From Streptomyces mirabilis (GTDB lineage: Bacteria; Actinomycetota; Actinomycetes; Streptomycetales; Streptomycetaceae), in NCBI RefSeq assembly GCF_039503195.1, contig NZ_JBCJKP010000001.1, positions 6,200,001 through 6,264,000 on the forward strand: 64,000 bases of DNA, read 5' to 3'. Below are positions 46,538-60,759 of the stretch, piece after piece; the stretch's first letter is position 1, and each line of letters begins with the position of its first letter. Made by a program: the position numbers and the translations under genes. The notes under the pieces were generated by a model. That model was not told the origin of the DNA and did not search any database. It saw only the letters and a program-made list of their open reading frames with translations.

Positions 46538-46560
46538 TTGTCAGTGGGGCCGCCTAGACT
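46538..46560 (+). promoter_or_regulatory. DNA-damage (RecA-NDp/PafBC-type) promoter of pcrA
   Basis: TTGTCAGTG at 46538-46546, 8-nt spacer, TAGACT at 46555-46560 (fits TAnnnT). This is the motif of RecA/LexA-independent damage-induced promoters in actinobacteria. Transcription would start near 46567, giving a leaderless or near-leaderless mRNA for ATG 46570. Confidence 0.75.
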
Positions 46561-46569
46561 CGGAGAGCG

Positions 46570-49113
46570 ATGAGCAGCCTCTTTGATGACAGCTTTCTGG
46601 CGGACCTCCAGCCTTCCGGGGCCCACGAGGAAGAGCCTCCGCCGCCCGAGGACGGGGCGCCGGAGCCGCTTCCGGACGACCTGTTCGGCGGCCGCTTCGA
46701 CGTGCCCGCGAGCCGGGACGCCTACTACCGCGACGGCGCGCACCGCCCCGCCGTGGACCCGGCGGCCCTGCTGGACGGGCTGAACGAGAACCAGCGCGCG
46801 GCCGTGGTGCACTCCGGCTCCCCGCTGCTCATCGTGGCCGGCGCGGGCTCCGGCAAGACCCGGGTGCTCACCCACCGCATCGCCCATCTGCTGGGCGAGC
46901 GCCATGTCCACCCCGGCCAGATCCTCGCGATCACCTTCACGAACAAGGCCGCGGGCGAGATGAAGGAGCGCGTCGAGCAGCTCGTCGGCCCGCGCGCGAA
47001 CGCGATGTGGGTGATGACCTTCCACAGCGCGTGTGTGCGGATCCTGCGCCGGGAGAGCAAGAAGCTCGGCTTCACCTCCTCGTTCTCGATCTACGACGCC
47101 GCCGACAGCAAGCGGCTGATGGCGCTCGTCTGCCGTGATCTGGATCTCGACCCCAAGCGCTTCCCGCCCAAGTCCTTCAGCGCCAAGATCTCGAACCTGA
47201 AGAACGAGCTGATCGACGAGGAGGACTTCGCAGCCCAGGCCGCCGACGGCTTCGAGAAGACCCTCGCCCAGGCCTACGCGATGTACCAGTCGCGGCTGCG
47301 CGAGGCGAACGCGCTCGACTTCGACGACCTGATCATGACCACGGTCAACCTGCTGCGCGCCTTCCCGGACGTCGCCGAGCACTACCGGCGCCGCTTCCGC
47401 CATGTCCTGGTCGACGAGTACCAGGACACGAACCACGCGCAGTACGCCCTGGTCAGGGAGCTCGTCGGCCCGGCCGCCGGTGACCGGCCCGAGGACGTGC
47501 CGCCCGCCGAGGGCGAGCTCGAGCCGGCCGAGCTGTGCGTCGTGGGCGACGCCGACCAGTCGATCTACGCCTTCCGCGGGGCGACCATCCGCAACATCCT
47601 CCAGTTCGAGGAGGACTACCCGGACGCGACGACGATCCTGCTGGAACAGAACTACCGCTCCACCCAGACGATCCTGACCGCCGCGAACGCGGTCATCGAG
47701 CGCAACGAGTCCCGCCGCCCCAAGAACCTGTGGACCAACGCGGGCGCCGGTTCGAACATCACCGGCTATGTCGCCGACACCGAGCACGACGAGGCCCAGT
47801 TCGTCGCCGACGAGATAGACCGTCTCACCGACGCGGGCGAGGCCAGGGCGGGCGACGTCGCCGTCTTCTACCGGACGAACGCCCAGTCCCGTGTCTTCGA
47901 AGAGGTGTTCATCCGCGTCGGTCTGCCCTACAAGGTCGTCGGCGGCGTCCGCTTCTACGAGCGCAAGGAGGTCCGGGACGTCCTCGCGTACCTCAGGGTC
48001 CTGGCCAACCCCGAGGACTCGGTCCCCCTGCGCCGCATTCTGAACGTTCCCAAGCGTGGCATCGGCGAGCGCGCCGAGGCCATGATCGACGCGCTCTCGC
48101 AGCGCGAGAAGATCAGCTTCCCGCAGGCGTTGCGCCGCGTCGACGAGGCGTACGGGATGGCGGCGCGGTCGACGAACGCCGTGAAGCGGTTCAACACGCT
48201 CATGGAGGACCTCCGCACCATCGTCGAGTCCGGCGCGGGCCCGGCGACCGTCCTGGAGGCGGTCCTCGAGCGCACCGGCTACCTCGCCGAGCTGCAGGCC
48301 TCGACCGACCCGCAGGACGAGACCCGGATCGAGAACCTTCAGGAGCTCGCCGCCGTGGCCCTGGAGTTCGAGCAGGAGACCGGCGAGGGCGGGGGCGAAG
48401 GCACGGGGGCGGGCGCTGCTGCGGGTGCGGCGGCTGCTGGTGCTGGTGCGGCGTCCGGTGGGCTCTCCGCGTTCCTGGAGCGTGTCGCGCTCGTCGCCGA
48501 CTCCGACCAGATCCCGGACGAGGAGGACGGCAACGGCGTCATCACGCTGATGACCCTCCACACCGCCAAGGGCCTGGAGTTCCCCGTCGTCTTCCTCACC
48601 GGCATGGAGGACGGCGTCTTCCCGCACATGCGCGCGCTGGGACAGGTCAAGGAGCTGGAGGAGGAGCGGCGCCTCGCGTACGTCGGCATCACGCGCGCGC
48701 GGGAGCGGTTGTACCTCACCCGCTCGTCCATGCGCAGCGCCTGGGGCCAGCCCTCGTACAACCCGCCGTCCCGTTTCCTGGAGGAGATCCCGGAGACGCA
48801 CCTGGAGTGGAAGCGCACCGGCGCGACCGCTCCCATGCCCTCGGGACCCGTCTCCGGTGTGGCCGCCTCGCTGTCGTCCTCGCGTTCGCGGTCCGCGGCG
48901 TCCGGCGCCTCCGGCTTCGCGACGCGCCGCGGGATCTCCGAGAAGCCGGTGGTCTCGCTCTCGGTCGGCGACCGGGTCACCCATGACCAGTTCGGCCTGG
49001 GCACCGTGGTCGGCGTGAAGGGGACGGGTGCGAACGCGGAGGCGACGGTCGACTTCGGCGAGGCGAAGCCGAAGCGGTTGCTGCTGCGGTACGCGCCGGT
49101 GGAGAAGCTGTAG
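46570..49113 (+). CDS. pcrA: ATP-dependent DNA helicase PcrA/UvrD
   Basis: 847 residues. About 75 extra acidic residues at the N-terminus, then the superfamily 1A helicase: LLDGLNENQRAAVVHSG (Q motif), Walker A AGAGSGKTRVL, motif Ia ITFTNKAAGEM, motif II VDEYQDTN, motif III VGDADQSIYAFRGA, motif IV QNYRSTQ, motif V TLHTAKGLEFPVV, motif VI ERRLAYVGITRARERLYL. The C-terminus ends with a Tudor-like domain (VGDRVTHDQFGLGTVVGVKG). Unwinds 3'-5' in nucleotide-excision and mismatch repair, and removes RecA or stalled RNA polymerase. A damage-type promoter and a tandem repeat precede it. Confidence 0.95.
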   Translation: MSSLFDDSFLADLQPSGAHEEEPPPPEDGAPEPLPDDLFGGRFDVPASRDAYYRDGAHRPAVDPAALLDGLNENQRAAVVHSGSPLLIVAGAGSGKTRVLTHRIAHLLGERHVHPGQILAITFTNKAAGEMKERVEQLVGPRANAMWVMTFHSACVRILRRESKKLGFTSSFSIYDAADSKRLMALVCRDLDLDPKRFPPKSFSAKISNLKNELIDEEDFAAQAADGFEKTLAQAYAMYQSRLREANALDFDDLIMTTVNLLRAFPDVAEHYRRRFRHVLVDEYQDTNHAQYALVRELVGPAAGDRPEDVPPAEGELEPAELCVVGDADQSIYAFRGATIRNILQFEEDYPDATTILLEQNYRSTQTILTAANAVIERNESRRPKNLWTNAGAGSNITGYVADTEHDEAQFVADEIDRLTDAGEARAGDVAVFYRTNAQSRVFEEVFIRVGLPYKVVGGVRFYERKEVRDVLAYLRVLANPEDSVPLRRILNVPKRGIGERAEAMIDALSQREKISFPQALRRVDEAYGMAARSTNAVKRFNTLMEDLRTIVESGAGPATVLEAVLERTGYLAELQASTDPQDETRIENLQELAAVALEFEQETGEGGGEGTGAGAAAGAAAAGAGAASGGLSAFLERVALVADSDQIPDEEDGNGVITLMTLHTAKGLEFPVVFLTGMEDGVFPHMRALGQVKELEEERRLAYVGITRARERLYLTRSSMRSAWGQPSYNPPSRFLEEIPETHLEWKRTGATAPMPSGPVSGVAASLSSSRSRSAASGASGFATRRGISEKPVVSLSVGDRVTHDQFGLGTVVGVKGTGANAEATVDFGEAKPKRLLLRYAPVEKL

Positions 49114-52821: not shown

Positions 52822-54453
52822 TCAGCGTGGTTCCGCACCGTCCAGCTCCGAGGACATCGCCGCGCGCAGACGCAGGGTGGTGACGAGGCGCTGGAAGGCC
52901 TCCGCCCAGTAGCCACCGGCACCGGGCGCCGCGTTCTCCGGCTCGTCGGCGACTGCCGTGAGTCCCTCCAGTCGCCCCGCCTCCGCCGGATCCAGGCACC
53001 GCTCGGCCAGCCCCATCACCCCACTGAAGCTCCATGGATAACTCCCCGCGTCCCGCGCGATATTGAGCGCGTCGACCACCGCCCGTCCCAGGGGTCCCGC
53101 CCACGGCACCGCGCAGACCCCGAGCAACTGGAACGCCTCGGACAAACCGTGCGTGGCGATGAACCCCGCCACCCACTCGGCCCGCTCGGCGGAGCCCAGC
53201 GTGGCGAGCAGTTTCGACCGCTCCGCCAGTGACACCGCTCCCGGCCCGCCGGCCTCCGGAGCCGACGGCGCGCCGAGGAGAGCCCGGGACCAGCCCGGGT
53301 CCCGCTGCCGTACCGCCGCCCGGCACCACGCGGCATGCAGCTCGCTCTGCCAGTCGTCCGCCACCGGAAGCGCCACGATCTCCTCCGGCGTACGTCCGCC
53401 GAGCCGTCGCGACCATGTCCCGAGCGGCGCTGCTTCGACCAACTGGCCCAGCCACCACGACCGTTCCCCTCGTCCCGCCGGAGCTTTCGGGACAACACCG
53501 TCGCGCTCCATGCTCGCGTCGCACTCGTGCGGCGCCTCGACGACGATCGAGGGTGTGCCCCGCGTCCGGTCGACGGCCACGCAGGTGCCGGCCCGCGCCG
53601 CCATCCGCGCGGCGAGCGCCGAACCGGGCAGCGCGGACAGCAGTTCCGCCGCCGTGGCCCGGACGTTGCGGCTCCGGTCGGCGAGCGCCCGCTCCAGGAA
53701 CGGTTCGTCCGCCGCGCACAGTCCGGAGCGCAAGGAGTCGAGGAACATCAGCCGGTCCTCGGCCCGCTCGGTCGCCCAGGTGGTGGCGAGCAGCTCGCGC
53801 GCGGCCCCGGGGTCCTGGGCCCGTATCGAGGTGAGCAGTGCGACCCGCTCGGCGAAGAGACCCTCCTGCCAGAGCCGTTGCGCGCGCCCGGGGTCCTCTG
53901 GGCCGGGCAGCGCGGTGCCGCCGCCGGGCAGCGACCGCAGGGCGAAGCGCCAGTCCGGGTTCAGCCGGGCGAGCCACAGGGCGCGTGGCCCGGCGAAGGC
54001 AAGGGCCGCAGGCCGCAGGTCCGTACGGCCCCGGGCGGCGTCGAGGAGCGCGGGCAGTGCTTCCGGGGGCGGCGCGAAACCCCGCGCGTTCGCCAGCGCG
54101 AGCCACTGCGGCAGCAGCTCCATGAGGTCGGGCGCCGTGCCCCGGCGACCACCGCCTCCCGTGCCGGGACGGTCCGCCAGCAGCGTCGTGAGTCGGTGGG
54201 CCGCGGCGGGCGGGAGGGCCCGTCGTGGGTCGGGCGCGGCGGGCTCGGGACGGGCGGCCGCCCGTGCGGCCCGCACCCCGGCCCGCCGCCGCAGGGTTTC
54301 CACCGCGGCCGCGTCCAGCAGGGCCACCGGTGCCTCGCGCCCGGCGGCCCAGGCGGGAGGCGGGCGCCGCTCGGTCCCGAGCAGGGCCATCGTGACGAGC
54401 TCCTCCCAGGAACCTCCGACGGACGCGCCCGCGGAGGCGGAGGTCGTGTTCAT
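52822..54453 (-). CDS. DUF5691-family protein
   Basis: 543 residues from ATG 54453. Contains SWEELVTMALLGTERR at the N-terminus, the mark of the DUF5691 family found beside SWIM, MoxR and VWA genes. The rest is Ala/Arg/Leu-rich and helical with possible HEAT-like repeats (RDPGAARELLATTWATERAEDRLMFLDSLR; DRSRNVRATAAELLSALPGSALAARM). No catalytic motif seen. It would act as a scaffold or adaptor of the cluster. Follows the SWIM gene on the same strand after about 100 bp holding a hexanucleotide repeat. Confidence 0.8.
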   Translation of the reverse strand: MNTTSASAGASVGGSWEELVTMALLGTERRPPPAWAAGREAPVALLDAAAVETLRRRAGVRAARAAARPEPAAPDPRRALPPAAAHRLTTLLADRPGTGGGGRRGTAPDLMELLPQWLALANARGFAPPPEALPALLDAARGRTDLRPAALAFAGPRALWLARLNPDWRFALRSLPGGGTALPGPEDPGRAQRLWQEGLFAERVALLTSIRAQDPGAARELLATTWATERAEDRLMFLDSLRSGLCAADEPFLERALADRSRNVRATAAELLSALPGSALAARMAARAGTCVAVDRTRGTPSIVVEAPHECDASMERDGVVPKAPAGRGERSWWLGQLVEAAPLGTWSRRLGGRTPEEIVALPVADDWQSELHAAWCRAAVRQRDPGWSRALLGAPSAPEAGGPGAVSLAERSKLLATLGSAERAEWVAGFIATHGLSEAFQLLGVCAVPWAGPLGRAVVDALNIARDAGSYPWSFSGVMGLAERCLDPAEAGRLEGLTAVADEPENAAPGAGGYWAEAFQRLVTTLRLRAAMSSELDGAEPR

Positions 54454-54503
54454 GAGCGTCCTTTCCGTGGGGAGGCGGTGCTGATGGTTTGACCGGTGAC
54501 AGT

Positions 54504-54533
54504 GGTGCTGGTGCTGGTGCTGGTGCTGGTGCC
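54504..54533. repeat. GGTGCT hexanucleotide repeat
   Basis: Four perfect GGTGCT units (54504-54527) plus one imperfect. It lies between the SWIM gene stop and the DUF5691 start. Such a simple repeat can change length by slippage and could alter spacing or a leader structure. Confidence 0.75.
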
Positions 54534-54556
54534 AGTGATGGGGGCGGTGCCGGTGG

Positions 54557-55912
54557 TCAGCACAGGGACACCGGCTCCCCGACGCCCTCCGGCCAGGCCG
54601 TCAGGGGAGTGAAGCCGCGGTGGCCGCACTCTCCGAAGACCGTGACGGGGGCGCCGCCGGACAGGGCGGCGAGGCGCCACAGCCCGGGTCGGGAGAGAAG
54701 GGAAGAGGCGATCGGGAGGGCGAAGTCGCCGTCGGCGTCCGCCAGTTGCCAGGTGTCGCCGTCAGGGGTGGGTATCACCCGGACCAGCGTGACCGGGTGG
54801 GAGTCGAGCCAGGGGTCGGCCCGCAGGGCTTCGCCGAAGCGGGCCGCCGCCTGGGAGGCGGTCAGCCCCGGTGGACGTGTCCGCGCGGGGGCGGGCGGCG
54901 TGAACCGCTCGCCCAGGGCCGCACGGAGCTGCCCGGCGCCCGGATAGGCGGACACCTCCGCCTCGAAGGCCAGCCCCACCGGCAGCGTCAGCTCCGGCGC
55001 ACGGCCGGCGGCCCCATAGGAGAGGAGCAGCGCGGTGCGGTCGCTCCCCGCGCCGTAGAGCCAGATCCTGCGGGTCGTGAGCCGGGTGTCCGCCGTGTCG
55101 TACTGGGCGAGGACCAGCCAGCGGTCCCGCACCGGTGGCCCGTCCGCCGAACCAGGCAGCCCCACCCGCGAGCGAACCGTCGCGGCCAGGTCGTCCGGCA
55201 GCCGCTCACGGCGCAGCCAGCCCTGGTCGAGGAGATGGAGCAACGCGCACTCCTCCAGCAGCCGCACCGGCCAGCCGGGTCCGGAGGAGGGAATCGCCCC
55301 CAATTCCCTGACCCGCGCGGCCAGTCCGGGCGCCTGCGCGTCGACCATGCGGGCCGCCGTCTCCTCCCACATCCCGTACCCCGCCTGCTCGGCCGACGCG
55401 AGGCCGCCCCGCAGCAGATCCGCCAACCGCTGCTCCAGCTCCGCCGCCCCCGCGGTGATCCGCTCGGCCCGCCGCCGCGCCCTGCGCCGGGCCGCTTCCG
55501 GATCGCCCGGTGACGCCGTCCCAGATGCCCCGCCCGTCGTCCCCTTCTCCGCCGCTCGCTCTCGTCTCCCCTTTATCCACTGCTCCGCCCAGTCCGGCGC
55601 CGGCCCTCGCGGTACCGAACCGTCCGCGCCCGCCCAGAGCAGCAGTAGTCCCAGCGCGTGCTTGCACGGGAACTTCCGGCTCGGGCAACTGCACGTGTAC
55701 GCGGGCCCGGTGGAGTCCGCGATGTCGATGACCGTCTGATAAGGCCTGCTGCCGCTTCCCCTGCACAGTCCCCATACCGTCCCCTCGTCAGAACTGCCTG
55801 CCTCCGACCACGGCCCGGCCGCGCCGAGCTTGCTGCTGGCCGTACGTGACGCGGCATCAGGCGCCAGTGCCAGCACCTGATCCGCCGTCCAGCGCACCCC
55901 CTGCTGAGTCAT
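54557..55912 (-). CDS. SWIM zinc-finger protein
   Basis: 451 residues from ATG 55912. The SWIM motif CxCxnCxH is Cys74, Cys76, Cys83, His85 (CSCPSRKFPCKH), after a DUF-type start (RWTADQVLALAPDAASRTASSKL). The remaining ~350 residues are a conserved region often called SWIM-associated, with DRWLVLAQYDTADTRLTTRRIWLYG and WRLAALSGGAPVTVFGE. SWIM fingers bind nucleic acids or partner proteins. The start of translation is 8-10 nt after the predicted -10 box, so the mRNA is probably leaderless. First gene of the left arm of the divergent cluster. Confidence 0.88.
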   Translation of the reverse strand: MTQQGVRWTADQVLALAPDAASRTASSKLGAAGPWSEAGSSDEGTVWGLCRGSGSRPYQTVIDIADSTGPAYTCSCPSRKFPCKHALGLLLLWAGADGSVPRGPAPDWAEQWIKGRRERAAEKGTTGGASGTASPGDPEAARRRARRRAERITAGAAELEQRLADLLRGGLASAEQAGYGMWEETAARMVDAQAPGLAARVRELGAIPSSGPGWPVRLLEECALLHLLDQGWLRRERLPDDLAATVRSRVGLPGSADGPPVRDRWLVLAQYDTADTRLTTRRIWLYGAGSDRTALLLSYGAAGRAPELTLPVGLAFEAEVSAYPGAGQLRAALGERFTPPAPARTRPPGLTASQAAARFGEALRADPWLDSHPVTLVRVIPTPDGDTWQLADADGDFALPIASSLLSRPGLWRLAALSGGAPVTVFGECGHRGFTPLTAWPEGVGEPVSLC

Positions 55913-55919
55913 GTCATCG

Positions 55920-55942
55920 AAGGTAGGTCCCGCCACTGACAA
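55920..55942 (-). promoter_or_regulatory. DNA-damage-type (RecA-NDp/PafBC) promoter of the SWIM gene
   Basis: On the minus strand TTGTCAGTG (55942-55934), an 8-nt spacer beginning GC, and TACCTT (55925-55920). All 11 bases of TTGTCAGTGGC are exact and the -10 fits TAnnnT. It is one arm of a perfect 13-bp inverted repeat (55931-55943 with 55980-55992). Confidence 0.75.
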
Positions 55943-55980
55943 TCGACCTTCGCGAGCTTATTTGCGCAGGTCAGAGCGCA

Positions 55981-56003
55981 TTGTCAGTGGCGTGGTGCAC
56001 GGT
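55981..56003 (+). promoter_or_regulatory. DNA-damage-type (RecA-NDp/PafBC) promoter of the MoxR gene
   Basis: TTGTCAGTG (55981-55989), 8-nt spacer starting GC, CACGGT (55998-56003). The upstream element matches TTGTCAGTGGC exactly; the -10 differs from TAnnnT only in its first base, so basal strength may be lower than in the left arm. Transcription would start near 56010, leaving a 36-nt leader with GGAGGGGGAG before ATG 56046. Confidence 0.65.
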
Positions 56004-56045
56004 GGAACCAGATCCGAACCGGCCGAGCTGGAGGGGGAGCGAGCC

Positions 56046-57212
56046 ATGTCCGTGCCCGTTGCGTCCGTTGAACCGACGACCGTCCGTCCGCCCGTGAGCG
56101 AGGGCCTGGGCGAAGGCGTGAGCGAGAGCGCGGGCGAGGCGCTGCGACCACATGCCGAGCACGCCTTCGCCGCCGAACTCACCGCGCTGGCCGCGCAGGA
56201 CGACCGGCCGCGGCCCGCCCGCTGGCGGCTGTCGCCCTGGGCGGTGGCCACCTATCTGCTGGGCGGCACGCTGCCGGACGGCACGGTGATCACACCGAAG
56301 TACGTGGGACCGCGCCGCATCGTCGAGGTCGCCGTCACCACGCTCGCCACCGACCGCGCCCTGCTCCTGCTCGGCGTGCCCGGCACCGCGAAGACGTGGG
56401 TGTCCGAGCACCTGGCCGCGGCGGTCAGCGGCGACTCGACCCTGCTGGTGCAGGGCACGGCCGGCACACCGGAGGAGGCGATCCGGTACGGCTGGAACTA
56501 CGCGCAGCTGCTGGCCCACGGCCCCAGCCGGGACGCCCTCGTGCCGAGCCCGGTCATGCGGGCCATGGCGGAGGGCATGACGGCCCGGGTCGAGGAGCTG
56601 ACCCGCATCCCGGCGGACGTGCAGGACACACTGATCACGATCCTGTCGGAAAAGGTCCTGCCCATACCGGAATTGGGCCAGGAGGTGCAGGCCGTCCGCG
56701 GCTTCAACGTGATCGCCACCGCCAACGACCGCGACCGCGGGGTGAACGAGCTGTCCAGTGCCCTGCGCCGCCGCTTCAACACGGTGGTGCTGCCCCTGCC
56801 GGAGAGCGCGGACGCCGAGGTCGACATCGTCTCGCGGCGTGTCGACCAGATCGGCCGGTTCCTCGACCTGCCCGCCGTGCCCGAGGGCATCGACGAGATC
56901 CGCCGTGTCGTCACCGTCTTCCGGGAGCTGCGCGACGGGGTGACGGCCGACGGGCGGACAAAGCTGAAGTCGCCCAGCGGCACGCTGTCCACCGCCGAGG
57001 CGATCTCGGTCGTCACGGGCGGCCTGGCCCTCGCCGCCCACTTCGGCGACGGCGTCCTGCGCGCGTCCGACGTGGCGGCCGGCATCCTCGGCGCCGTCGT
57101 CCGTGATCCGGCCGCCGACCGGGTCATCTGGCAGGAGTATCTGGAGGCGGTCGTCCGCGAGCGGGACGGCTGGAAGGACTTCTACCGGGCCTGCCGGGAG
57201 GTGAGCGCATGA
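56046..57212 (+). CDS. MoxR-family AAA+ ATPase
   Basis: 388 residues from ATG 56046. Walker A GVPGTAKT (about 110-117), a Walker-B position that reads VEEL instead of the usual DE (RVEELTRIPADVQDTL), sensor 1 ATAND, arginine-finger region SSALRRRFN, and sensor 2/lid downstream. N-terminal ~75 residues are family-specific. MoxR ATPases work with VWA proteins as chaperones that insert metals or remodel protein complexes. Its stop overlaps the start of the DUF5682 gene by 4 bp (ATGA). Confidence 0.88.
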   Translation: MSVPVASVEPTTVRPPVSEGLGEGVSESAGEALRPHAEHAFAAELTALAAQDDRPRPARWRLSPWAVATYLLGGTLPDGTVITPKYVGPRRIVEVAVTTLATDRALLLLGVPGTAKTWVSEHLAAAVSGDSTLLVQGTAGTPEEAIRYGWNYAQLLAHGPSRDALVPSPVMRAMAEGMTARVEELTRIPADVQDTLITILSEKVLPIPELGQEVQAVRGFNVIATANDRDRGVNELSSALRRRFNTVVLPLPESADAEVDIVSRRVDQIGRFLDLPAVPEGIDEIRRVVTVFRELRDGVTADGRTKLKSPSGTLSTAEAISVVTGGLALAAHFGDGVLRASDVAAGILGAVVRDPAADRVIWQEYLEAVVRERDGWKDFYRACREVSA

Positions 57213-59566
57213 CGACCTTCGCGACGGGGCCGTTGCTGCTGGGGGTGCGGCATCACGGCCCGGGGTCGGCCCGTGCCGTGCGGGCCGCGCTGGAGGCGGC
57301 GACGCCCGAGGTCGTACTGATCGAGGGACCCCCGGAGGCGGACGCGCTCATCCCGCTCGCCGCCGAGAAGGACATGCGTCCTCCCGTCGCACTCCTCGCC
57401 CATGTCGTGGACGAGCCCGGCCGCTCCGCCTTCTGGCCGCTCGCCGAGTTCTCCCCCGAGTGGGTGGCGATCCGGTGGGCCCTGGAGCACGGAGTCCTGG
57501 CCCGCTTCATCGACCTCCCGGCGACCCACACGCTCGCGTGGGGGAACGAAGAGGAGAAGGGGGCGACGGAGGAGGAGAAGGGGGCGGAGGAGGTCGGTGC
57601 GTCCGACCGTTCCGTCGACACGGACGTGCGGATCGACCCCCTCGCCGTCCTCGCGCAGACGGCCGGTCACGACGATCCCGAGCGCTGGTGGGAGGACGTG
57701 GTCGAGCACCGCGGCGGGGCCGGGGTCGGGGCCGACCCGTTCGCGCCGTTCACCGCGCTGGAGGAGGCGATGGGGGCACTGCGGGAGGTCCACGGGGTCG
57801 GGGGACACGACCGGGATGTGGTGCGCGAGGCGTACATGCGGCTCCAGTTGCGGGCGGCGCAGCGGGAGTTCGGGGACGAGGTGGCCGTGGTGTGCGGGGC
57901 CTGGCACGTGCCTGCGCTGCGGCAGAAGCCGAGCGTGGCCGCCGATCGGGCGCTGCTCAAGGGGCTACCCAAGGCCAAGGCCGACATGACGTGGGTGCCG
58001 TGGACGCACCGGAGGCTGTCGCGGGTCAGCGGGTACGGCGCGGGCATCGACTCGCCGGGTTGGTACGGGCATCTGTTCGCCGCCCCGGACCGTCCCGTCG
58101 AGCGCTGGATGACGAAGGTGGCGAGGCTGCTGCGCGACGAGGACCGGATGGTGTCGGCGGCGCACGTCATCGAGGCGGTTCGGCTGGCCGACACCCTCGC
58201 CGCGATGCGCGGTCGCCCACTGCCCGGGCTGACCGAGACCACCGACGCCGTACGAGCCGTGATGTGCGAGGGCTCGGACGTGCCACTGGGGCTCGTGCAC
58301 GACCGGCTCGTGGTCGGCGATGTGCTGGGCGAGGTGCCCCAGTCCGCTCCCGCGGTGCCGTTGCAGCGCGATCTGGCGCGTGCGCAGAAGCGGTTGCGAC
58401 TGAAACCCGAGCCGATGGAGCGGGAGTTGGAGCTGGACCTGCGGGGGGAGACCGACGCAGGGCGGAGCGGACTCCTGCACCGGCTGCGGCTGCTCGGTAT
58501 CGCGTGGGGCGAGCCCACCGCCTCGCGCGGCAGCACCGGCACCTTCCGGGAGACCTGGCGGCTGCGCTGGGAGCCGGAGCTGTCCGTGCGGGTCGCCGAG
58601 GCCGGGGTCTGGGGCACGACGGTGCTGTCGGCGGCGACCGGCAAGGCCGAGGCCGACGCCGTCGCCGCGCACGCCCTGGCCGAGGTCACGGCACTGGCCG
58701 AGCGCTGTCTGCTCGCCGAACTCCCGGACGCGCTGCCCGTGGTGATGCGGGTCCTCGCCGACCGGGCGGCGCTGGACGCGGATGTCGGTCATCTCGCCCA
58801 GGCCCTGCCCGCGCTGGTCCGCTCCCTGCGGTACGGCGATGTGCGCGGCACGGACACACACGCCCTCACGGACGTCGCCATGGGCCTCGCCGAGCGGATC
58901 TTCGTCGGGCTCCCACCCGCCTGTTCGGCCATCGACGCCGAGGCCGCCGAGCACATGCGAGGCCATGTGGACGCGGTGCACGGCGCGGTGGGGCTGTTGG
59001 GGGAGCCGGGCACGGCGGCCTCCGGCGGCATACGCGAGCGCTGGCACTCCGTACTCCGGGTGCTGGCAGGGCGGGACACCGTGCCGGGGGTGATCCGCGG
59101 GCGGGCGGTACGACTGCTGTTGGACGACGGGGAGTTGGGGCAGGACGAGGCCGCGCGGCTCATGAGTCTCGTGCTGTCGCCGGGTACGGAGCCGGGGGAC
59201 GCGGCCGCGTGGATCGAGGGCTTCGTCGGCGGTGGCTCCGGGGGCGGGATGCTGCTCGTGCACGACGAGCGGCTGCTCGGTCTGGTGGACGCGTGGCTGA
59301 CCGGGGTGCCGACGGAGGCGTTCACCGATGTGTTGCCACTGCTGCGGCGCACCTTCTCGGCGTACGAGGCAGGGGTGCGCAGAACGCTGGGCGAGCTGGT
59401 CCGGCGCGGCCCGGGGGCGCGGGGGAGCGCCGAGGCCGCCTCCGGGATACCCGGGTTCGCGCCCGACCTCGACCCCGAGCGCGCCGACGCGGTCCTGCCG
59501 GTGCTGAGCCTGCTGCTGGGGCTGGGCGAGGCCTACGACGACGACTTTGCGGGGGTGACCCGATGA
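57209..59566 (+). CDS. DUF5682-family protein
   Basis: 785 residues, ATG within the previous stop. It begins LLLGVRHHGPGSARAVRAALEAATPEVVLIEGPPEADALIPLAAEK, with RHHGPGS and the EGP motif typical of DUF5682; the N-terminal half, including GDEVAVVCGAWHVPAL, recalls the ChaN/EreA/TraB group of (metallo)hydrolase-like folds, but this is only a resemblance. The C-terminal half is helical (EVTALAERCLLAELPD; HGAVGLLGEPG). Its substrate is unknown. It lies between the MoxR and VWA genes with overlaps at both ends, so the three products are probably made in fixed proportion. Confidence 0.83.
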   Translation: MTTFATGPLLLGVRHHGPGSARAVRAALEAATPEVVLIEGPPEADALIPLAAEKDMRPPVALLAHVVDEPGRSAFWPLAEFSPEWVAIRWALEHGVLARFIDLPATHTLAWGNEEEKGATEEEKGAEEVGASDRSVDTDVRIDPLAVLAQTAGHDDPERWWEDVVEHRGGAGVGADPFAPFTALEEAMGALREVHGVGGHDRDVVREAYMRLQLRAAQREFGDEVAVVCGAWHVPALRQKPSVAADRALLKGLPKAKADMTWVPWTHRRLSRVSGYGAGIDSPGWYGHLFAAPDRPVERWMTKVARLLRDEDRMVSAAHVIEAVRLADTLAAMRGRPLPGLTETTDAVRAVMCEGSDVPLGLVHDRLVVGDVLGEVPQSAPAVPLQRDLARAQKRLRLKPEPMERELELDLRGETDAGRSGLLHRLRLLGIAWGEPTASRGSTGTFRETWRLRWEPELSVRVAEAGVWGTTVLSAATGKAEADAVAAHALAEVTALAERCLLAELPDALPVVMRVLADRAALDADVGHLAQALPALVRSLRYGDVRGTDTHALTDVAMGLAERIFVGLPPACSAIDAEAAEHMRGHVDAVHGAVGLLGEPGTAASGGIRERWHSVLRVLAGRDTVPGVIRGRAVRLLLDDGELGQDEAARLMSLVLSPGTEPGDAAAWIEGFVGGGSGGGMLLVHDERLLGLVDAWLTGVPTEAFTDVLPLLRRTFSAYEAGVRRTLGELVRRGPGARGSAEAASGIPGFAPDLDPERADAVLPVLSLLLGLGEAYDDDFAGVTR

Positions 59567-60759
59567 CAGCGGCACCTGTGGAAGCGACCGGATCGAACGG
59601 TCCGACCGGACCCACCGACGCCGACGAGCGGCTGCGGCGATGGCGGCTCGTGCTGGGAGGTGAGGAGGCGGACGGCACCGGATGCGCGCTCGCGGGGCAG
59701 GACGCGGCGATGGACGGGGCGCTCACCGCGTTGTACGGGAAGGACGGCAAGGGGCGGGCAGGGCGGGACCGTTCGGCGGGGCTGGGGGCGTCGGCGCCGT
59801 CGGTCGCACGCTGGCTCGGGGACATCCGGACGTACTTCCCCTCGTCCGTCGTGCAGGTCATGCAGCGGGACGCCATCGACCGGCTCGGGCTGTCCACCCT
59901 CCTGCTGGAGCCCGAGATGCTGGAAGCGGTCGAGGCCGATGTGCACCTGGTCGGCACGCTGCTCTCCCTCAACAAGGCCATGCCGGAGACGACGAAGGAA
60001 ACGGCGCGGGCGGTCGTGCGCAAGGTCGTCGAGGATCTCGAGAAGCGGCTCGCGAGCCGCACGCGGGCGACTCTCACCGGCGCCCTCGACCGCAGTACGC
60101 GCATCAGCAGACCCCGTCACCACGACATCGACTGGAACCGCACGATCGCGGCGAACCTCAAGCACTACCTGCCCGAGTACCGCACGGTCGTGCCCGAACG
60201 GCTGGTCGGCTACGGGCGTGCCTCGCAGTCCGTGAAGAAGGAGGTCGTCCTCTGCATCGACCAGTCGGGATCCATGGCGGCGTCCGTCGTCTACGCCTCC
60301 GTGTTCGGTGCCGTCCTCGCGTCGATGCGGTCCATCGCGACCCGGCTCGTCGTCTTCGACACGTCCGTCGTCGATCTGACCGACCAGCTCGACGATCCGG
60401 TCGACGTCCTCTTCGGCACCCAGTTGGGCGGCGGTACGGACATCAACAGGGCGTTGGCGTACTGCCAGTCGCAGATCACCCGCCCCGCCGACACGGTGGT
60501 CGTGCTCATCAGCGACCTCTACGAAGGGGGTATACGCGACGAGATGCTCAAGCGGGTCGCGGCGATGAAGGCGTCGGGGGTGCAGTTCGTGACGCTGCTG
60601 GCGTTGTCCGACGAGGGGGCGCCCGCGTACGACCGTGAGCACGCGGCGGCGCTCGCGGCGCTGGGTGCACCGGCGTTCGCCTGTACGCCCGACCTGTTTC
60701 CCGAGGTGATGGCGGCGGCGATCGAGAAGCGGCCGCTTCCGATACCGGACACCGCCTGA
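59563..60759 (+). CDS. VWA (CoxE-like) domain protein
   Basis: 398 residues, ATG overlapping the DUF5682 stop. An N-terminal half of about 225 residues (LLEPEMLEAVEADVHLVGTLLSLNKAMPETTKETARAVVRKVVEDLEKRL) is conserved in VWA proteins of MoxR operons. The VWA domain starts at KKEVVLCIDQSGSMAAS with a complete MIDAS DxSxS (Asp233, Ser235, Ser237), then GTQLGGGTDINRAL (Thr) and LISDLYEGG (Asp). The metal site suggests Mg2+-dependent binding of a client or of the MoxR ring. Last gene of the right arm. Confidence 0.88.
   Translation: MTAAPVEATGSNGPTGPTDADERLRRWRLVLGGEEADGTGCALAGQDAAMDGALTALYGKDGKGRAGRDRSAGLGASAPSVARWLGDIRTYFPSSVVQVMQRDAIDRLGLSTLLLEPEMLEAVEADVHLVGTLLSLNKAMPETTKETARAVVRKVVEDLEKRLASRTRATLTGALDRSTRISRPRHHDIDWNRTIAANLKHYLPEYRTVVPERLVGYGRASQSVKKEVVLCIDQSGSMAASVVYASVFGAVLASMRSIATRLVVFDTSVVDLTDQLDDPVDVLFGTQLGGGTDINRALAYCQSQITRPADTVVVLISDLYEGGIRDEMLKRVAAMKASGVQFVTLLALSDEGAPAYDREHAAALAALGAPAFACTPDLFPEVMAAAIEKRPLPIPDTA

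Follow-up and report, generated by a model that had tools for sequence, protein, structure and literature searches.

A divergent MoxR-DUF5682-VWA and SWIM-DUF5691 gene cluster of Streptomyces with conserved paired promoters of predicted PafBC type

The closest described counterpart of the gene cluster considered here is yehL-yehM-yehP-yehQ of Escherichia coli, which we take to represent the "YehL subfamily" of MoxR AAA+ ATPases. Publications naming two or more of YehL, YehP, YehQ and YehM did not, by their titles and abstracts, deal with function, and a literature search yielded none in which YehL-type MoxR systems are given a role. We analysed a five-gene cluster of this kind in a 64,000-nucleotide stretch of Streptomyces mirabilis DNA (contig NZ_JBCJKP010000001.1, positions 6,200,001 to 6,264,000; the whole stretch is referred to as the window), and the search likewise yielded no paper that we recognised as treating this cluster. 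Two further known systems bear on it. The mycobacterial PafBC regulon makes use of LexA/RecA-independent promoters (RecA-NDp), given with the consensus tTGTCRgtg - 8 nt - TannnT (PMC5656591), and the Streptomyces RecA-NDp promoters covered in the published sections consulted are those of recA and of SCO6735, an S. coelicolor gene reported to be induced approximately 5-fold by UV (PMC5087735). The MoxR-vWA ternary conflict systems of multicellular bacteria are described as combining a MoxR protein, a vWA protein and a large third protein (Kaur et al. 2020, PMC7159879), as the present cluster does; the term SWIM has no occurrence in the main text of that paper. Comparison with these systems leads us to propose, tentatively and at somewhat under an even chance, that the cluster encodes a core AAA+ remodelling machine, similar in kind to YehL/YehM/YehP, which is controlled by DNA damage and acts at damaged DNA.

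An earlier note on this DNA, made from the sequence alone, had described five genes in two arms around a 133-bp promoter, and both the Pfam matches and the length of the gap agree with this (Table 1). The DUF5691 and SWIM genes are read leftward and the MoxR, DUF5682 and VWA genes rightward, with 133 bp from start to start. ATGA overlaps are present at both junctions of the right arm (MoxR/DUF5682 and DUF5682/VWA) as the note had stated; the "stoichiometric production" that it drew from them does not follow from sequence. The Walker A motif of MoxR and the D-x-S-G-S motif of the VWA protein are each kept in 20 of 20 proteins, and GGGT[DN] of the VWA protein in 18 of 20. Conservation of the ATPase motif along with those of the VWA protein leads us to expect a working ATPase-clamp pair. 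The DUF5691 protein perhaps consists of helical repeats; the sole PDB sequences matched by its profile were repeat proteins of the alphaREP type, and weakly so (E 1.9 and 6.4).

Table 1. Features of the window, by position and strand.
Feature	Position	Strand	Details
DUF5691 protein	52822-54453	-	543 aa; Pfam PF18944, 581.7 bits
SWIM zinc-finger protein	54557-55912	-	451 aa; Pfam PF04434, 26.5 bits
Putative RecA-NDp/PafBC-type promoter, SWIM-DUF5691 arm	55920-55942	-	TTGTCAGTGGCGGGACCTACCTT
Perfect 13-bp inverted repeat	55931-55992		both arms
RecA-NDp/PafBC-type core, MoxR arm, non-canonical -10	55981-56003	+	TTGTCAGTGGCGTGGTGCACGGT
MoxR-type AAA+ ATPase	56046-57212	+	388 aa; Pfam AAA_5, 128 bits; YehL homolog
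DUF5682 protein	57209-59566	+	785 aa; Pfam PF18934, 998.8 bits; YehM homolog
VWA_CoxE protein	59563-60759	+	398 aa; Pfam PF05762, 209.2 bits; D-x-S-G-S motif; YehP homolog
Putative third RecA-NDp-type promoter	46538-46560	+	TTGTCAGTGGGGCCGCCTAGACT; 9 nt ahead of PcrA/UvrD-type helicase gene 46570-49113

The longest inverted repeat in the 133-bp gap is perfect over 13 bp, with the arm ATTGTCAGTGGCG at 55931-55943 and 55980-55992, and each arm contains one RecA-NDp/PafBC core, TTGTCAGTG; the repeat search and the motif scan thus reproduce what had been noticed by reading. The extended element TTGTCAGTGGC occurs exactly in the 64 kb solely at 55932-55942 (minus strand) and 55981-55991 (plus strand), and allowing up to one mismatch gave five sites compared to a mean of 0.66 in 100 shuffled sequences, none of which reached five. 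On the SWIM arm the pattern TTGTCRGTG-N8-TANNNT fits exactly, with TACCTT as the -10 element. The ATG of the SWIM gene lies 7 nt past this -10, and a consensus built from 77 named loci has the same start context; the SWIM gene is therefore probably transcribed without a leader. In the MoxR arm, CACGGT is followed by a leader with a stretch that resembles a ribosome-binding site by eye.

The promoter pair is conserved throughout the genus. A MoxR relative (E<=1e-70) was found in 287 of 295 Streptomyces genomes; 11 of the 287 had matches weaker than 1e-150 only, and these may be paralogs or fragments. Two sets of loci were compared, one of 50 (the 30 best matches, own locus included, and 20 from further down the list) and one of the best 80 named loci among the matches listed; the sets share 4 sequences, so that 130 loci represent 126 distinct promoters. 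A pair of NTGTCAGTG cores was present in 130 of 130 loci, the -10 being TANNNT for the SWIM arm and CANNNT for the MoxR arm. Both cores were exact in 50/50 loci of the first set and in 71 of the 79 loci placed in the second (the remaining locus, L188, was examined separately), the other 8 having a changed first T (7 on one side, L183 on both). Expressed per distinct promoter, both cores are exact in 118 of 126, and only the first T is changed in 8. The exact 9-mer occurred in 149 copies in the promoter stretches of 79 named loci and in none of their remaining 1,157,359 bp. The distance from core to core ranges from 25 to 720 bp, being mostly 36-38, and outside the cores the gap is poorly conserved. 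This retention of the cores while spacing and gap drift indicates that each core is apparently selected singly and not as part of a palindrome. The occurrence of the motif upstream of orthologous clusters, on which the earlier note had staked its prediction beforehand, therefore held at 130 of 130 Streptomyces loci. Its reading of the two -10 elements held for TACCTT, which is exact; CACGGT, called near-exact, is a non-canonical element of a CANNNT form found at all 130. The MoxR-arm CANNNT, constant over the Streptomyces loci compared, is part of a conserved TGGTGCAcgGTGG block, and its steadiness may reflect either the action of a second factor or a more stringent dependence on the activator.

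Gene content is conserved along with the promoters. The five genes were found in divergent order in 67 of the 80 named loci; no other order was seen in any of the remaining 13, of which 12 end at a contig edge where the gene is missing, and in L151 there was no VWA gene in the last 1.7 kb before the contig end. The neighbourhood is also steady: all 65 full-length loci have a B12-binding gene, and 56 of the 65 have a SucC-like gene.

We also examined how the promoter motif is distributed over the 11.1-Mb genome of S. mirabilis. TTGTCRGTG-N8-TANNNT was found at 41 sites, and the reversed control gave 0. When spacers of N5 to N7 were allowed after TTGTCAGTGNC, 20 of 20 sites had N6 and the controls gave 0. 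The downstream gene was inspected for all 41 sites (2 of them in the window; no frame at L218), and repair, replication or nucleotide genes lie behind 13 of the 41. Those confirmed by Pfam encode MGMT, RuvC, MgsA/RarA, a DnaN-type protein (DNA polymerase III beta-type), UDG, UvrB, DnaX, ThyX and PcrA/UvrD; further targets, named from sequence by eye, are RecA, DinG, RpsF-SSB and a helicase encoded close to pafBC. The start codons of the MGMT, UvrB and DnaX genes lie 7 nt past the -10, like that of SWIM, and RecA has an in-frame start codon at this same distance, its usual start being probably further on. Other Pfam-confirmed genes behind sites encode a DUF4253 protein and a WGR protein, the latter being the sole WGR match of the genome (L225:480-1946; WGR plus a beta-propeller-like part). 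The genome encodes adjacent PafB (WYL+WCX) and PafC (HTH_PafC+WYL+WCX) proteins near a Pup-ligase gene. The likeness to the mycobacterial PafBC/RecA-NDp regulon thus extends to the core, the N8 spacing, the SWIM-arm -10, the repair-gene targets and the location of the PafBC genes near the Pup-ligase gene. By its promoter pair and the company of this pair in the genome, the cluster very probably stands under PafBC damage control. Whether Streptomyces has a PafBC-type regulon is undecided in published work (PMC9380542); the 41 sites of this single genome, together with the 126 distinct promoters of the cluster, argue that it does.

Some sites of the same motif lie elsewhere in the genome context. 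The helicase site of the window is approximately 9 kb from the five-gene cluster. At a group of loci (L018, L019, L226, L227, L230, L017), RecA-NDp sites are found 6-11 nt ahead of IS605/TnpB-type frames, with two identical copies on the second contig, C2, and with L230 matching the N-terminal helix-turn-helix only, and one site precedes an IS5-like transposase, as judged by reading. Mobile elements may thus be riding the damage response. The DnaN-type gene that follows the RecA-NDp site at L012 occupies two frames, at 36 and 402 nt past the -10, and may be a paralog that is either broken or mis-sequenced. In other Streptomyces, divergent paired TTGTCAGTGGC sites of a second class occur away from the best MoxR match (L029, L035, G182:C12:111371-111421). 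Within the cluster itself, positions 54454-54556, between the DUF5691 and SWIM genes, contain short tandem repeats of GGTGCT type.

Three of the five proteins are homologous to products of the E. coli yeh genes. The MoxR protein shares 39% identity with YehL over 356 columns (E 6e-75), the DUF5682 protein 28% with YehM (E 5e-39) and the VWA protein 38% with YehP (E 1e-76). The genes for MoxR, DUF5682 and VWA are in the same order in E. coli, with a SWIM protein encoded in the operon. As for membership in the YehL subfamily, the window MoxR has a YehL-like AAA+ core and its gene adjoins DUF5682 and VWA genes. The window SWIM protein and YehQ could not be aligned significantly; each has a CxC..CxH motif, and there was no DUF5691 match to YehQ. 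The E. coli genes yehF (WGR) and yehI (DUF4132) lie within approximately 8 kb upstream of yehL. Two paralogous MoxR/DUF5682/VWA clusters are present in the S. mirabilis genome, L113 (G000:C1:1698822-1714952) and L112 (G000:C1:10008814-10024899), and a DUF4132 match lies approximately 5 kb upstream in L113, as in the yehI-yehL arrangement. Of 14 control genomes, those of E. coli and Deinobacterium chartae gave matches to both DUF5682 and WGR and the others to neither; DUF4132 was matched in E. coli only. This WGR/DUF4132 company provides an independent, weak link of the machine to DNA.

Outside Streptomyces the cluster takes a different arrangement. A survey of the class found a match in 44 of 197 genomes, 16 of these in the genus, and 18 of the 22 non-genus genomes with a strong MoxR match (E<1e-160) were examined at the locus. 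In 18 of 18, relatives of all five genes lie together on one strand in the order SWIM-type, DUF5691, MoxR, DUF5682 and VWA, which extends beyond the genus the joint conservation expected by the earlier note. The SWIM-type and DUF5691 parts form a single open frame in 7 of the 18, and these fusions argue that the two proteins work as a unit. The conserved part of the SWIM-protein family is the region past the finger. Promoters at the SWIM start were scanned in 17 loci (L096 was excluded, and the start was roughly estimated in L098, L099, L101 and L103). A degenerate TTGTC...TANNNT was found at the position of the motif in five (L094, L095, L100, L102, L105), and ten were without either form. 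Promoters of recA were placed in 14 of 15 loci, taken from 18 genomes. The recA promoters of family f18 have the form CTGTCGGACCC...TA...T (L200, L201, L204), and CTGTCGGACCC recurs in two of four SWIM promoters (L106, L108), a match that is suggestive over these few loci. In a simple, hypothetical history, the ancestor would have had a collinear operon behind a damage-type promoter, and the first two genes of this operon became inverted in Streptomyces so that each arm carries one core.

To obtain information on the DUF5682 protein, a family with at least 7986 relatives, we used AlphaFold 2 (AF2) models together with an alignment of 16 of the 18 non-Streptomyces proteins, the window protein and YehM (L097 and L101 were excluded because their frames as cut start late). 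The models have an N-terminal alpha/beta domain and C-terminal helical repeats. Comparison of the modelled N-terminal domain by VIA-align suggests, as a new observation, that it resembles the alpha/beta fold of ChaN, EreA and TraB (Tiki-type), with conserved His and Glu residues following strands. We take TraB, ChaN, EreA and Tiki to be one superfamily. DUF5682 differs from them in having helical repeats attached to the domain and MoxR-VWA as its partners. Speaking against the likeness, Foldseek alone found nothing in the PDB at E<=0.001 for the N-terminal domain, and hhalign gave no alignment of DUF5682 with the TraB protein YbaP. Sequence and profile comparisons with TraB, ChaN, EreA and Tiki likewise gave no significant match; PF04187 (Tiki superfamily, ChaN) was matched weakly by 1 of 18 DUF5682 members (E 0.056). 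The predicted Tiki-type fold would provide candidate catalytic residues for the DUF5682 family.

These features can be combined into a working mechanism, in which we infer damage induction of the five genes, complex formation, hydrolase activity and a DNA-linked client. DNA damage would produce single-stranded DNA, upon which PafBC would bind both divergent RecA-NDp cores and direct RNA polymerase both ways, such that SWIM-DUF5691 and MoxR-DUF5682-VWA are raised in concert with recA and the repair genes. ATP-driven force would come from the MoxR ring, and the VWA protein would grip the client via its metal site, with DUF5682 (Tiki-type domain plus helical repeats) acting as a scaffold and probable hydrolase. 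The SWIM-DUF5691 unit would recruit nucleic acid or a DNA-bound client, and the complex would remodel or clear proteins at damaged DNA. A more specific version, which we consider improbable, is that the MoxR-VWA motor drives DUF5682 as a Tiki-type hydrolase, targeted by SWIM-DUF5691 as adaptor, so that proteins trapped on damaged DNA are pulled out or cleaved. If true, the system would be a bacterial counterpart in role to the motor-plus-protease clearance of DNA-protein crosslinks, with E. coli yehLMPQ, which has a WGR gene nearby, as an ancient relative.

Several results weigh against the proposal of a damage-controlled machine acting at DNA. At the promoter, the MoxR-arm -10 CACGGT (55998-56003) does not fit TANNNT, the core being exact and the N8 spacing kept, and the motif is absent from both paralogous clusters, L112 and L113. 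In the genome, 28 of the 41 sites have no clear repair gene behind them, several being ahead of transposases. Outside the genus, a strong MoxR match was found in just 22 of 181 genomes of the class, which when set against the genus survey makes the cluster near-core in Streptomyces only, and the strict motif was at the SWIM start in only 2 of 17 loci (L104, L109). The earlier note's assignment to the actinobacterial damage promoter applies in Streptomyces, where recA and repair genes share the motif and PafBC is encoded; the strict motif is for the most part confined to this genus, with degenerate forms occurring elsewhere. The window SWIM protein gave no significant alignment with YehQ (614 aa), and 5 of the 18 SWIM-type proteins (L096, L098, L099, L101, L103) show no CxC..CxH finger in any of six frames checked, indicating that the finger is dispensable and weakening a DNA-binding role for it. 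Finally, according to a LexA study of S. venezuelae, an initial search suggested a lack of conservation, in that species, of the PafBC motif known from M. smegmatis (PMC9380542). For the genus at large our counts argue otherwise; S. venezuelae itself was outside the sample.

The foremost alternative, unlikely but to be taken seriously, is a PafBC-regulated maturation chaperone for one enzyme that does not act at DNA, for example one inserting a metal or cofactor into a repair or nucleotide-pool enzyme in the manner of CoxD-CoxE. The VWA protein is of CoxE type, the MoxR-vWA examples described in the survey literature act in complex assembly or metal insertion (PMC7159879), and DNA binding by the finger may be dispensable given the five finger-less proteins. 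Yet no client enzyme gene was seen inside the five-gene block, whether collinear (18 loci) or divergent as in Streptomyces, this statement covering the block only, and the WGR link points to nucleic acid. We regard it as very improbable that the inverted repeat is not a damage promoter, but serves the housekeeping polymerase or another regulator and resembles RecA-NDp incidentally. The constant CANNNT on the MoxR side and the initial search in S. venezuelae would fit this explanation; it is opposed by the 41 sites compared to 0 in the control, by their repair-gene targets, by the retention of both cores while the spacer drifts, and by the UV induction described for the S. coelicolor RecA-NDp gene (PMC5087735). 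The phage-conflict role offered as an alternative in the earlier note, here taken as a MoxR-vWA system triggered by single strands from invading DNA, is the least probable of all, because its precedent among multicellular bacteria (PMC7159879, in the part consulted), the patchy distribution outside Streptomyces and a bpMoxR Pfam score of 23.8 bits, itself below the cut-off of 27, are set against near-core distribution in the genus (287/295), constant neighbours, a VWA domain ending at residue 382 of 398 that leaves no room for an effector domain, and PADLOC matches to IetA only (E 0.014 and 0.029).

The proposed damage-controlled remodelling machine has relatives well beyond Streptomyces, as YehL-type MoxR genes range from E. 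coli to actinobacteria. Its predicted placement in the damage regulon of Streptomyces would provide a concrete condition under which the function of a YehL-type machine can be sought.

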